Source of the DNA: Methylococcus sp. Mc7
GTDB lineage: Bacteria > Pseudomonadota > Gammaproteobacteria > Methylococcales > Methylococcaceae
Direction of reading: 5' to 3'
NCBI RefSeq assembly: GCF_019285515.1
Contig: NZ_CP079095.1
Span: forward strand, 3,566,501 to 3,630,500
DNA: 64,000 bases
The notes beneath the pieces are model-generated. The model saw only the letters and a program-made list of their open reading frames with translations. It was not told the origin of the DNA and did not search any database. Position 1 is the first letter of the stretch. Each line of letters begins with the position of its first letter. The translations under genes and the position numbers were made by a program. This document shows positions 242 to 5,815 of the stretch, piece by piece.

Positions 242-1192
242 TCACGGCACCGACAGGCCGACGGCCCCGGTGACGACGATATTGACCAGCGTCAGCGGCA
301 GCATCACCTTCCAGCCGAAACTCATGAGCTGGTCGTAGCGCGGACGGGCCAGCGCCGCCCGCAGCAGGATGAAGAACATGATGAAGACCAGGGTCTTGAG
401 GATGAACCACGCCAAGGGCGGCAGGAAGGCCGGCCCTAGCCAGCCGCCGAAGAAAAGCGTCACCAGGATGGCCGAGTTCAGAGTGATGCCTAAATATTCC
501 CCGACGAAGAACATGCCGAACTTCATGCCGGAGTATTCGGTGTGGAAGCCGCCGGTGATTTCCTGTTCGGCTTCCGGCAGGTCGAAGGGCGCGCGATGGC
601 ATTCCGCCACGGCCGCCACCAGGAAGGCGAGGAAGCCGGCGAACTGCGGCAGCACGTACCAGCAGTCCTTCTGCGCCTCGACGATCTCCCGCAGGTTGAA
701 GCTGCCGGACAGCATCACCACGCCCATGGCGGCCAGGCCCATGAACACCTCGTAGCTGATGCTCTGGGCGGCGGCGCGCAGGCTCCCGAGCAGGGAGTAT
801 TTGTTGTTCGAGGCATAGCCGGCCAGCACCTGGCTGTAGACCGCCAGCGAAGACAGCGCGAAGAAATACAGCAGGCCGAAGTTGAAGTCGATGACGCCCA
901 CGCCCGGCGCGAACGGCACCACCACGAAGCCGAGCAGCATGGTCACCATGACGATGGCCGGCGCGATGACGAACACCGGTTTGTCGGCGAAAGGTGGAAT
1001 CCAGTCTTCCTTGAAGAAGATCTTGACCATGTCCGCCACCACTTGCCCCAGCCCCAGCGGGCCGACCCGGTTGGGCCCGAGCCGGTCCTGCCAGATCCCG
1101 ATCAGGCGGCGCTCCACCCAGATCAGCCAGGCCGCGACGACCACGACCGAGAGCAGGATGCCGACGACGACATAGGGCGATCCGACGGTCAT
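242..1192 (-). CDS. nuoH: NADH-quinone oxidoreductase subunit H
   Basis: 316-residue integral membrane subunit that links the peripheral arm of complex I to the proton-pumping arm and forms part of the quinone chamber. It has the expected series of hydrophobic helices, the N-terminal segment [20 protein letters not shown] near residues 24-43, and the acidic loop [19 protein letters not shown] typical of NuoH. The start chosen here (ATG at 1192) overlaps the nuoG stop as ATGA. An open frame continues upstream inside nuoG, but the ATGA overlap and the family's N-terminus favour this start. It is translationally coupled to nuoG and followed by nuoI. Confidence 0.96.
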
Positions 1193-4100
1193 GGCGTATC
1201 TTCTCCGGGCTTGTTCGGCGTCCATGGCCGCGAGGCGGTTTCCAGGAAAGGCAGGTCGGGCAGGCCTGCCGGCACGCCGGCGACGCCGGCCGCGAGGCCG
1301 GGGAGGAGCTTCACCGGCAGCCAGATGTCCGGGGCAAGCTGGACTTCTTCGCCCTCGGCGAGAGCAAAGCGTTCGGCGTCCTCGGGGCTGAGGGCCAGAT
1401 AGGGATGCGGCGCCCGCTCGGCGACCGCGGCAGACTGCATGCTGGTCTCGTCGCTGCCGAAGATGTGGGGTATCGGTACCAGCCGCAGGGCGTCTGGGGG
1501 CGAGGTGCCGGCCTCGGGCGGCGCGAACCACTGAAGGCCGGTTCCGCCGCCCTCGCCGATCAGGCGGATGCCGGGATCGCCGCCGCGCAAATGGCCGCCG
1601 GCTTCATCCTGGAATTTCCCGACCGACTGGTTCGAATTCCAGCCCGGCGCCCAGACGAAGGGATTCAGGGCGGGCGGATGGTCCTGCCCGGCGCCTTCCA
1701 TGGAAAAGGCCAGGGCCGAATCCGTATCCTCCGGCTGTTTCGGCTCGTGGATACGGACGTCGGCCAGCATGGCGGTGCGCCCGCTGTACCGGTGCGGCTG
1801 GCGCGGGATTTTCTGGCCCGCGATGCGGAAGGCCGCTCCCGGTGCGCAACCGGTAATTTCCCGGAACACCGGCAGCGATTCGGCCAGCGCATGGGTGAGA
1901 TCGTCGATGTGGGTCCAGGGCCCGAGCCAGCGCCAGGCGTCGCGGCTGTCGCCGGTGGGCTGCATCGCAGAGAAGAAACGCTGGGCGCGGCCTTCGCTGC
2001 TGACCAGCGTGCCTTCGGTCTCGGCGAAGCTTGCGGCCGGCAGGGCGAGGTGAGCGCGCCCGGCGGTCTCGTGCAGGGTATGGTCGATCACGATCACCTG
2101 TCTGGCGCGGTCGAGCAGGGCGTCGATGGCGGTCCTGTCCGCCCGCCGGTAGAGATCGTTTTCCAGGATGAGCAGCGTGTCGGCCTCGCCTCGTTCGATC
2201 GCTTGAACGGCAGCCGCAAGCGAGAAAGGCAGGGGCGTAACGGCTAGCTCACCCTCTCCCTCTGGGAGAGAGGGATGTGCGCCATGCGCACCGGATCGTT
2301 CCCCGGCACCTGCAGATAGGGTGGATAAGCCTAGCGCATCCACCTCCGCGCTGACTCGAAGAGCAGCGGAGCTGACTCGAAGAGCGGCGGAGCCGACTCG
2401 AAGAGCAGCGGAGCTGAATTCGGCGGATGCGCCGCGGCTTGTCCCCCCTACGATCCCGATAGGTTCCTGGGTAGGGCCGGGGTGAGGGAAATCGCCCTCC
2501 ATGCCCATCAGCGCCAGCCCCAGGCTGTTGCATTCCGGCACGGCGAAATGCGCACCCGTGGGTCGGCCCTGCCGTTTCGCCGCCAGCGCGGCGGCGATCT
2601 GCCCCGCCGCCCGCAGCACGTCCTCGCTCAGGCAGCCGGTGCCGGACACGATCAGGGGCCGTTCGGCGCCTGCCAGCGCGTCGGCGATCTCCGCGGCCAG
2701 CGCCTCGTGTTCGGGCGTCAGGCCTGAGACGGCCGGCGCCTCGGGGCAGATGCCGTGCGCGACGGCGAAACCCAGCCGGGCGATGGCGTCGGGGCCGGCG
2801 CGGCAGATCCGCGCGGCGACCTCGTCCAGCCGGGTCGGCGCCGGACTGGCGACGAACAGCGGGCTTTTTTCGGCCTGGGCCGCTTCGCGCACGGCGGCGT
2901 CCTGCCAGCGCGGGATGCCCAGCCCCTCGGCGATGGCCAAAGCGCGGTTGCGCACCGCCTGGCGCAGCGCCAGCGCCAGCCGCGGCGCGGTCTGGGTCGG
3001 GTCTTCGCCCAGCACCAGCACCGCATCGGCCCGTTCGGCCTCGCGCAGGGACACGAGATGCACCGGGAAATCCCGGACGATACCGAGCAGGCTGCGCAGG
3101 CATCCGTATTCGGCGTCGCCGATGCCGGCATGGAAACGCTCCGCACCGACCCGTTCCCGCAAGGCGAAATTGGCCTCGAGGCTGGCGCGGGGCGATCCGA
3201 TGCCGATGATCCCCTGAGCGTCCCGGATCGCGGCGGTGAATCGGTTTGCGGCGGTGTTCACATCGAGCGGACCTTCCTCGGCCGACCGGGCCTGACGGAG
3301 GCGCGCCGGGCCGTTGACGAAGCCGTAGCCGAAACGCCCGCGGTCGCACAGGAAATAGCCGTTGATCTCGCCGTGATAGCGGTTGACGATCCGCCGCAGG
3401 CTGCCGTAGCGCTCGCCGGGGCTGGTGTTGCAGCCGATCCCGCAGTGGACGCAGATCGAGGGCGCGGTCTGCAGATCCCATTTGCGGCTGTAATGCCGGC
3501 TGAAGGTCTTGTCGGTGAACACCCCGGTGGGGCAGACCTCGACCAGGTTGCCGCTGAATTCGTTCTCCAGCGCCCCGTCCTCATGGCGGCCGAAATAGAC
3601 GTGGTTGTGCGAGGCGAACACCTGCAAGTCGTCGCCGCCGCAATAGTCCTGGTAATAGCGGACGCAGCGGTAGCAGGCGATGCAGCGGTTCATCTCGTGG
3701 TTGATGAACGGCCCCAGGTCCTGGTTGCGGTGGGTGCGCTTGAGGCCGCGGTACTGGCGGAAGGTATGGCCGGTCATCACGGTCATGTCCTGCAGATGGC
3801 ATTCGCCGCCTTCCTCGCACACCGGGCAGTCGTGCGGGTGGTTGGTCATCAGCAGTTCCAGGATGCCGGCGCGGAAATTCTTGGCATTGTCGCCTTGCAG
3901 AGATATCCGCATGCCTTCGGCCACCGGCGTCATGCAGGCCATCACCAGCCGACCTTGGCTGTCGTCGGCGTTCTGGTACTGGATCACGGCGCACTGGCGG
4001 CAGGCGCCCACCGAGCCCATGGCCGGGTGCCAGCAGAAATAGGGCAGGTCCAGGCCCAGCGAGAGTATCGCCTGCAGCAGGTTTTCCCCCGCCTTGACCG

Positions 4101-4539
4101 GATAGCTCTTGCCGTCGATTTCGATGTGCGGACCCGCCTTCGGCTGTCCAAAATCGTTCCTTACGATTTTGTGCGGACTCCTTCCCTGGAGTCCGTCCTC
4201 CGGACCCGCCTTCGGCTGTCCAAAATCGTTCCTTACGATTTTGTGCGGACTCCTTCCCTGGAGTCCGTCCTCCGGACCCGCCTTCGGCTGTCCAAAATCG
4301 TTCCTTACGATTTTGTGCGGACTCCTTCCCTGGAGTCCGTCCTCCGGACCCGCCTTCGGCTGTCCAAAATCGTTCCTTACGATTTTGTGCGGACTCCTTC
4401 CCTGGAGTCCGTCCTCCGGACCCGCCTTCGGCTGTCCAAAATCGTTCCCTACGATTTTGTGCGGACTCCTTCCCTGGAGTCCGTCCTCCGGACCAGCCTT
4501 CGGCTGTCCAAAATCGTTCCTTACGATTTTGTCAGGCAT
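1189..4539 (-). CDS. nuoG: NADH-quinone oxidoreductase subunit G with two in-frame repeat insertions
   Basis: Large iron-sulfur subunit of complex I, 1116 residues; usual NuoG proteins are about 700-910. After residue 137 comes a normal 2Fe-2S ferredoxin domain ([15 protein letters not shown]), then the cluster motifs [21 protein letters not shown] and CVHCGIGC, then the molybdopterin-oxidoreductase-like region. Two segments look foreign: residues 4-137 are five and a half copies of a 24-residue repeat, and about residues 686-765 are translated repetitive DNA with three SSAALRV-like units. Both keep the frame. The ATG at 4539 overlaps the nuoF stop by 8 nt, so coupling to nuoF is kept. Whether the extra residues remain in the mature protein is unknown. 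Confidence 0.93.
2249..2489. repeat. Nested intergenic-type repeat inserted in nuoG
   Basis: About 240 bp inside nuoG has the structure of a repetitive element. Two arms near 2317-2344 and 2422-2450 are an imperfect inverted repeat. They flank three direct 21-bp units at 2351-2371, 2372-2392 and 2393-2413. Outside the arms, 2471-2489 and 2249-2275 look like the two halves of a common REP-like sequence with the core CTCCCTCTGGGAGAG, as if one element had landed inside another. The whole block is read through in frame by nuoG. That it is mobile or multi-copy is inference. Confidence 0.7.
4129..4530. repeat. 72-bp tandem repeat array at the 5' end of nuoG
   Basis: Five full units and one partial unit with a period of exactly 72 bp (starts at 4129, 4201, 4273, 4345, 4417 and 4489), almost identical to one another. 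Each unit holds at least three inverted repeats: AAAATCG/CGATTTT, GGACTCC/GGAGTCC and GTCC/GGAC. Because 72 is divisible by 3, nuoG reads it as [13 protein letters not shown]-type 24-residue repeats directly after Met-Pro-Asp. The units have no variable spacers, so this is not a CRISPR. The near-identity suggests recent expansion or continuing homogenisation. Confidence 0.93.
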
Positions 4540-5815
4540 ACACGCCTCCGCTGATGCTCTGCGGCTGGAGATAGCGCTCGAAATCGGCGCGGAAGTATTT
4601 GAGGGCGCTCTGCAGCGGCTCCATCGCGCCGGGGGCGAGGGCGCAGAAGGTGTTGCCCGGGCCGAGTAGGCCGCACAAGCGCTCCAAAGTCTCGAGATCC
4701 TCCGGCCGGCCGCGCCCCGCGATCAGTCCTTCGAGCAGGCCGACGGTCCACGGCAGACCGTCCCGGCAGGGCGTGCACCAGCCGCAGGATTCCTGGGCGA
4801 AGAACCGCTCGAGATTGAGCACCATCCGCACCGGGCAGGTCCGGTCGTCCAGCAGGATCATCGTGCCGGTGCCGAGCCGGCTGCCGGCCTTGCCGATCGA
4901 GCCGTAGTCCATGGGGACGTCCAGGTGCTCCGGCAGCAGGAAGTCGGTGGATGCGCCGCCCGGCATGTAGCCCTTGAGCCGCAAGCCTTCCCGCATGCCG
5001 CCGGCGTGTTCCTCGATGATCTCGCGCGCCGTCGTGCCCATCGGCAGCTCCCAGGCGCCGGGGCGTTTGACCCGGCCGCTCACGCCGTAGATCTTGGTGC
5101 CCGGCTCGCCGGTCCGGCTGAGGCCTTTGTACCACTCCACCCCGTTGCGGAGGATGTGCGGCAGGTTGCACAGGGTCTCGACGTTGTTGACGATGGTGGG
5201 CTTGCCGAACAGGCCGGAAACCTGCGGAAAGGGCGGCTTGGCGCGGGGATTGGCGCGCTTGCCTTCCAGCGAGTTGAGCAGGGCGGTTTCCTCGCCGCAG
5301 ATGTAGCGCCCGGCGCTGGTGTGCAGGCGGAGGTCCAGGCTGAACTCCGAGCCGAGAATGTTCTCGCCGAGCAGCTTGTGTGCTTCGGCTTCGGCGATCG
5401 CCCGCCGCAGCCGGTCCGCTGCCAGCCGGTATTCGCCGCGGAGGAAGACGTAGGCGATGTTCGCCTGGATGGCGTAAGACGCGATGGCGACACCTTCGAT
5501 CAGTTGGTGCGGATCGCCTTCCAGCAGCAACCGGTCCTTGAACGCGCCGGGCTCCATTTCGTCGCCGTTGACCACCAGGTATTTGGTTTTGGGCGCGTCC
5601 TCGCCCATCGGCACGAAACTCCATTTCAGGCCGGTCGGGAAGCCGGCGCCGCCCCGGCCGCGCAGCCCCGAGTCCTTGACCCTTTGCTGAACCTCCAGCG
5701 GGGCGAGTTCGGCGAGAACTTTTTTCAATCCCTCGTAGCCGCCGTTGGCCCGGTATTCGGCCAGGCTGGCGGCGGAGCCGTCGGGCTTGATGTTGCGGGT
5801 GAGCGGCTTGTCCAT
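4532..5815 (-). CDS. nuoF: NADH-quinone oxidoreductase subunit F
   Basis: 427-residue catalytic subunit that binds NADH and FMN and carries cluster N3. The glycine-rich nucleotide-binding region (LRGRGGAGFPTGLKW, about residues 50-64), the FMN-pocket segment around VNGDEMEPGAFKDR, and the 4Fe-4S motif SCGWCTPCRDG near residues 342-352 are present, with a downstream cysteine. Length matches the family. Its start overlaps the nuoE stop (ATGA) and its stop overlaps the nuoG start, so all three are tightly coupled. Confidence 0.97.
   Translation of the reverse strand: MDKPLTRNIKPDGSAASLAEYRANGGYEGLKKVLAELAPLEVQQRVKDSGLRGRGGAGFPTGLKWSFVPMGEDAPKTKYLVVNGDEMEPGAFKDRLLLEGDPHQLIEGVAIASYAIQANIAYVFLRGEYRLAADRLRRAIAEAEAHKLLGENILGSEFSLDLRLHTSAGRYICGEETALLNSLEGKRANPRAKPPFPQVSGLFGKPTIVNNVETLCNLPHILRNGVEWYKGLSRTGEPGTKIYGVSGRVKRPGAWELPMGTTAREIIEEHAGGMREGLRLKGYMPGGASTDFLLPEHLDVPMDYGSIGKAGSRLGTGTMILLDDRTCPVRMVLNLERFFAQESCGWCTPCRDGLPWTVGLLEGLIAGRGRPEDLETLERLCGLLGPGNTFCALAPGAMEPLQSALKYFRADFERYLQPQSISGGVYA

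Follow-up and report, generated by a model that had tools for sequence, protein, structure and literature searches.

In the window analysed here, a stretch of 64,000 nucleotides from the genome of the methane-consuming bacterium Methylococcus sp. Mc7, nuoF (4532..5815, minus strand; ORF list and Pfam) lies upstream of nuoG (1189..4539, minus strand), and the two genes share 8 nt, ATGCCTGA (4532..4539, minus strand), which hold both the start ATG of nuoG and the stop TGA of nuoF. The nuoG ORF, taken from the ORF list, encodes 1116 aa, contains two repeat insertions and matches the Pfam models Fer2_4, NADH-G_4Fe-4S_3, Fer4_Nqo3, Molybdop_Fe4S4 and Molybdopterin. The first insertion is a tandem array at 4126..4530 (minus strand), as delimited by TRF, the unit listing and covariance-model matches. 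Read in the sense of nuoG, the ATG (4539-4537) and codons 2 and 3 are followed by five units of 72 nt (4530-4171) and a unit of 45 nt (4170-4126), directly behind which, at 4125, the ordinary NuoG sequence resumes. TRF reports a period of 72 with 5.6 copies and 99% matches (4129-4532), in agreement with a preliminary description of this DNA that had noted near-identical 72-bp units, inserted in frame behind codon 3 with the overlap with nuoF left intact. That description was also right about a long extension ahead of the 2Fe-2S domain, but the array adds 138 residues, Met counted, instead of about 134.

Unit 1 (4459..4530, minus strand) occupies the same place as the first unit of all six Methylococcus genomes. 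In the consensus fold it forms four predicted hairpins on the minus strand, H1 with a 9-bp stem (4509..4531), H2 (4494..4506), H3 (4483..4493) and H4 (4463..4482), the latter being the stem that co-varies most strongly in the alignment of the element family described below. The units are thus hairpin-rich, as had been stated, but instead of three inverted repeats there are four predicted hairpins, the supposed middle one consisting of two adjacent small stems. The shortened last unit (4126..4170, minus strand) comprises H1 and H2, i.e. it is 27 nt shorter, and the last unit of genome G004 is cut at the same place (G000 denotes the Mc7 genome under study, other G numbers compared genomes and L numbers loci). 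Only the six nuoG units score with the covariance model inside the window. The second insertion in nuoG is an unrelated dispersed repeat, also in frame (2252..2476 (2224-2502), minus strand; DNA matches, with a 21-bp tandem repeat by TRF). The NuoG proteins of the other five Methylococcus genomes lack its ~93 residues; the repeat has 62 DNA matches in the Mc7 genome, itself included, and short fragments of it adjoin Y1-transposase genes, so that it is perhaps REP/RAYT-like.

The preliminary description implied that the array had landed in Mc7 alone, which does not hold: all six Methylococcus genomes have units at the nuoF/nuoG junction, ranging from one to five full copies (G000 five plus a partial one, G002 one, G003 two, G001 two, G004 one plus a partial one, G005 three), and it is the copy number alone that is recent. 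Since all six genomes have units there, the insertion dates back to their common ancestor or further. Full units differ at 1.27 positions on average within a genome (15 pairs) and at 5.34 between genomes (76 pairs); in Mc7 they differ from each other at 0-2 of 72 positions and from the units of other genomes at 4.6 on average. As differences within genomes are smaller than those between them, the expansion is younger than the split of the species and the insertion older. The copy numbers and the identity within the genome show that the copy number has drifted and that Mc7 has undergone a recent expansion, as had been suspected.

In other genera 23 loci were inspected (14 from the search for relatives and 9 chosen of 80), of which L023, L098 and L108 had no parsed junction. 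None of the 20 readable junctions contains a unit, a short N-terminus in G010 aside. The unfilled sites of G031 and G009 have the same type of start/stop overlap and read ATGGCTGA, followed by ATCGA-type sequence, and G008 has a different N-terminal extension of NuoG. The N-terminus of G010 comprises 20 residues, and its DNA resembles a shortened unit, with 28 of 42 nt being identical (codon-shuffle mean 11.6; 0 of 20000 shuffles) in an alignment that takes the Methylococcus relatives from residue 3 and G010 from residue 2. It displays no excess fold (z = -0.5), is not recognised by the covariance model and, if it is a copy at all, looks like an eroded one. The NuoG tree unites Methylococcus with G010, G008 and G031 (96/95; internal order unresolved). 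The insertion may therefore be older than the genus, although G031 has no unit.

By its sequence the nuoG unit is a member of a dispersed family of four-hairpin, mobile-type elements of ~75 bp. A genome-wide search for the 72-bp unit, as suggested in the preliminary description, gave DNA matches at 7 other places in the Mc7 genome. With a pattern made of H1 and part of H2 the element is found in 12 of 38 genomes of the bacterial family, and with a slightly looser one in 13 of 369 Gammaproteobacteria genomes sampled, the Mc7 genome being included in both counts and the reversed controls giving 0. Covariance-model matches at E <= 0.01 number 61 in G000, 36 in G002, 29 in G005, 13 in G003, 12 in G004 and 3 in G001, and 1 to 55 in each of ten other genomes; these counts are rough, as scoring was confined to the top 150 candidates of each genome, overlapping matches on opposite strands count twice and the nuoG units are included. 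When 43 elements are aligned, they share a four-stem fold in which 96.8% of cells are paired. The covariation of this alignment amounts to 0.366, as compared to 0.126 in shuffles, none of 500 of which reached it, and to no more than 0.072 after sliding, and 10 of 22 pairs changed on both sides, a count that was reached by 13 of 500 shuffles. The 43 elements stem from 51 distinct ones, less three further G000 nuoG units, the second units of G003, G001 and G005, the second L153 copy and L165; L142, L148 and L159 lie outside the set of 51.

Of 5426 E. coli genomes, 604 carry the element, with one or two copies each; the copy that was inspected lies near panC, within ERIC-like sequence that presumably is an ERIC. 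ERICs with an insert of ~70 bp have reportedly been described by Sharp and Leach and by Wilson and Sharp. In E. coli, Klebsiella and Salmonella (L142:2001-2076, L140, L141) the element (el) lies within or beside ERIC-like sequence in the form GAGTG|el|AATCCCC, and these contexts suggest a target of the type G|AATCC. Some other copies lie in sequences resembling tRNA genes, namely in G187 within sequence read as tRNA-Ser-like, at D-loop and T-loop positions, and in L146, L155, L153 and L154 at apparent D-loop or T-loop positions (GGTCG|el|AAAGC, GGTTCG|el|AATCC); ARAGORN finds only intact tRNA genes near these copies. In L004, L007, L144, L151 and L158 the copies start exactly at ATG|A, like a gene start/stop overlap and as in nuoG.

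The element is also found inside other genes. A BREX-like locus of Mc7 (G000:C1:1267770-1283319; L002, L004, L005, L226, L227), whose ORFs match the BrxHI, BrxC, PglZ and BrxA models, holds at least 12 of the 61 model matches in 15.5 kb. Here copies lie in open frame inside the ORFs matching BrxHI, BrxC and PglZ, and the BrxHI-type ORF contains three copies within one open frame. In G005 at least 9 of 29 model matches fall within 14 kb (G005:C1:1144851-1159217), including two copies in the same helicase ORF. Further open-frame copies are present in an AEP-TOTE primase-helicase (G000), in HsdR (G029), where the reading frame is the same as in nuoG, and in an IS256-type (Mutator family) transposase. 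As the ORFs holding copies were chosen for being open, these cases do not prove an in-frame excess. In two genomes (L147, L149) a copy interrupts an IS91-like transposase out of frame, and the codon hit is almost identical in both.

Several candidates for the identity or the vehicle of the element were rejected. A known RNA family is not supported, with no Rfam match at gathering score in loci L001-L008. The name boxC does not suit the E. coli copy, as one or two copies per genome (604 of 5426 genomes) compare with 22-32 copies of boxC in E. coli, according to a passage in PMC2267715. All six Methylococcus genomes carry Y1 genes (23 Y1_Tnp matches), but 0 of the 20 of these loci that were considered carry the element, which argues against a RAYT/Y1 transposase as mobiliser. 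Plasmid origin was dismissed as well: the nuoG unit has no match among plasmids, and a dispersed copy matched 10 records, all enterobacterial, two of which were inspected and show chromosomal-type neighbours (hisS-ispG-rodZ and pdu genes).

Taken together, we consider it likely that the array goes back to a single, old event in which a mobile hairpin element inserted at the gene overlap, and that this copy was kept in frame, was tolerated as a disordered tail and has since expanded and contracted by whole units. A small non-autonomous element (~75 bp, four hairpins) would have inserted, by transposition, behind the nuoF-stop/nuoG-start overlap in the ancestor of Methylococcus, since the same site is occupied in all six genomes and unfilled in other genera. 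Because the sense frame of the element has no stop, nuoG would have stayed open and the element would have become the N-terminus of NuoG. As the 72-bp unit corresponds to 24 codons, tandem duplications and losses keep the frame, so that the number of full units could drift between 1 and 5, and slippage or recombination at the hairpins may have led to the recent expansion in Mc7. The encoded peptide would be a disordered tail ahead of the 2Fe-2S domain that is tolerated without selection on its sequence, as suggested by its predicted disorder, the substitution pattern and the variation in length.

Alternatively, the array might be a selected RNA element that acts at the coupled start, adjusting either mRNA stability or how strongly nuoG is translated in comparison with nuoF, with the copy number serving as a dial, a reading that we regard as possible but rather unlikely. 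It draws on the substitution pattern. In the first unit of the six genomes pS is 0.085 and pN 0.058, as compared to 0.272 and 0.048 in the last 100 nuoF codons and 0.247 and 0.034 over the initial 160 NuoG core codons, i.e. synonymous change in the unit is about one third of that in the flanking coding sequence, although the differences are few, with 21 synonymous and 48 nonsynonymous ones added up over 15 pairs that are not independent. A pS as low, or a pN/pS as high, as that of the first unit is reached in none of 214 flanking windows of 24 codons. Transfer of the unit together with its flanks is rejected as the cause of the low synonymous change, as the flanks diverged normally. Moreover, stems vary less than loops: among 11 distinct full units (of 14 at nuoG; first column left out) 5 of 50 paired and 8 of 21 unpaired columns are variable (p = 0.015). 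The fold of the junction RNA is strong (z = -9.9; 0 of 100 shuffles as good), and the second pair of H2 is A-U, C-G or G-C depending on the genome, at the cost of an amino-acid change between Q, P and R.

Nevertheless, the same H2 pair is broken (A-G) in 5 of the 6 Mc7 units, 6 of 275 cells are unpaired in the 11 distinct units, 24 of 25 pairs lack compensatory change, with changes on both sides in 1 of 25, and the number of full units ranges from 1 to 5 among close species. The N-terminus of G010, which looks like a unit, has neither the excess fold nor a match to the covariance model. Furthermore, copies that lie elsewhere, at sites unrelated to nuoG, have kept these hairpins as well, so that hairpin upkeep may belong to the element itself or to palindrome-correcting mutation. 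The substitution pattern says that it is the nucleotide sequence rather than the peptide that is held, and both selection on RNA and palindrome-repairing mutation would fit. The array may affect mRNA folding and translation coupling, as the preliminary description proposed. A wider version, in which a domesticated mobile four-hairpin element, found across the class and able to persist within coding sequence, acts as RNA at the coupled nuoF-nuoG start and sets the stoichiometry of complex I, with the unit number as an evolvable dial and the tail as a by-product, strikes us as unlikely.

It is very doubtful that the extension instead serves complex I as a functional protein segment whose sequence is under selection. 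The frame is open in all units and the extension is kept in all six genomes, and the 20-residue N-terminus of G010 resembles a shortened unit even though the hairpins are gone. Substitutions across the six genomes, however, give no sign of selection at the protein level on the encoded peptide: pN/pS is 0.68 in the unit and 0.22 in the core, and the variable columns, being distributed 4/4/5 over the codon positions, show no third-position bias. Pfam places the 2Fe-2S domain at NuoG residues 138-215 and finds no match in residues 1-137. In an AlphaFold run with residues 1-364 and 41 aligned sequences, pLDDT is ~29-37 for residues 1-130 and mostly 60-88, with one weak stretch, in the 2Fe-2S region; the tail is thus predicted to be disordered, in a model that is poor as a whole (mean 44.5). 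Moreover, the extension varies severalfold in length and, with G010 as the exception, 19 of the 20 junctions that could be read in other genera lack it. The comparison with relatives envisaged in the preliminary description had a twofold outcome, i.e. the genus does have N-terminal units at the same site, yet these form no conserved protein domain (Pfam, AlphaFold), and a conserved N-terminal domain is rejected by Pfam, AlphaFold and the comparison with relatives.

It is highly improbable that the array is an untranslated leader and that NuoG, being mis-annotated, starts downstream. N-terminal REPs in other species have been suspected of being extragenic owing to mis-annotation, as stated in a passage of PMC3733652, and in G004 a CTG at codon 40, just ahead of the ordinary protein, makes a non-canonical start conceivable there. 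In Mc7, in contrast, CTG first appears at codon 153, which already lies within the 2Fe-2S domain, and the next in-frame ATG, GTG or TTG is codon 173, likewise inside this domain. None of the six Methylococcus genomes has such a codon within or just behind the array, and in each of them the next one follows only after the PYFCW motif of the 2Fe-2S domain, by which a downstream start at ATG, GTG or TTG is rejected. A Shine-Dalgarno-like GGAGG precedes the first ATG in all six genomes, and this motif and the start/stop overlap are placed as in the unfilled relatives. For a complete NuoG the array must therefore be translated, and from the start codons alone we infer that the tail is made.

We see hardly any room for a birth of the repeat in nuoG, by duplication of its own N-terminus and subsequent spread: G010 and the shortened last units do share the 20-residue form, but the wide distribution of the element disfavours this origin, with the element core being present in 13 of 369 Gammaproteobacteria sampled, the Mc7 genome included, the contexts inspected there not being nuoG, and the E. 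coli copy lying beside panC. Finally, near-identical tandem units are prone to misassembly and the exact number of units could be off, but arrays of differing copy number at the same site in six separate assemblies, four of them single-contig, render an artefact, which the preliminary description had considered, practically negligible.

An old insertion that was tolerated and amplified, which we thus prefer, can be compared with several known systems. ERIC/IRU/RU-1 and other bacterial MITEs are, like the element, small, dispersed and structured repeats, and gene fusions have been reported for RU-1 and RU-2 in a passage of PMC2759123. No TA duplication is visible by eye between filled and empty nuoG sites, the ends being uncertain by 1-2 nt, and the E. 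coli copy lies inside ERIC-like sequence but is not itself an ERIC. REPs and REPINs (GTAG and CGTC families) share the palindromic nature, and intragenic in-frame copies as well as clusters encoding tens of residues are mentioned in PMC3733652. However, a GTAG or CGTC REP is a single palindrome of 20-40 bp with an unpaired tetranucleotide tag, whereas the element is ~75 nt long and has four stems, and GTAG REPs flank a RAYT (Y1) gene, whereas the element stands beside none of 20 Y1-transposase loci. With intragenic VNTRs the array shares an in-frame unit and a copy number that varies between species, but the nuoG unit is part of a family of dispersed elements. Genes known to contain VNTRs mostly encode surface proteins, not complex I. 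Among the matches listed, the open-access literature gave nothing on a repeat array in Methylococcus or NuoG, and searches for the sequence strings of the element as text gave nothing relevant by title.

Protein-coding palindromes are best known from Rickettsia, and protein-coding palindromic repeats such as the Rickettsia RPEs are, likened by description, probably the closest precedent. The Rickettsia and Wolbachia palindromic elements are short, dispersed and found in frame in protein genes, as well as in RNA genes and at protein N-termini, according to passages in PMC2229807 and PMC3733652. Likewise, the nuoG element is dispersed and palindromic with many copies (61 model matches in Mc7, 96.8% of cells paired, strong covariation), and in-frame copies lie in recognisable genes (nuoG, BrxHI, BrxC, PglZ, AEP-TOTE, HsdR and a Mutator-family transposase). 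It differs in being a four-hairpin element of Gammaproteobacteria that is amplified in tandem at one gene with a species-variable copy number. In our reading a dispersed palindrome has come to encode the translated N-terminal part of a core respiratory subunit and was then amplified as a length-variable tail, which would place Rickettsia-like behaviour in free-living Gammaproteobacteria, with the element reaching E. coli. Whether such sequences are tolerated junk or tuned regulators thereby becomes testable in a host that is culturable and non-pathogenic, and with its many open-frame copies in defence genes of the BREX type the element seems to merit a separate study. As compared to the in-frame palindromes already known, what is new here is a different element, located in a core respiratory gene, present genus-wide in six genomes and amplified in tandem.
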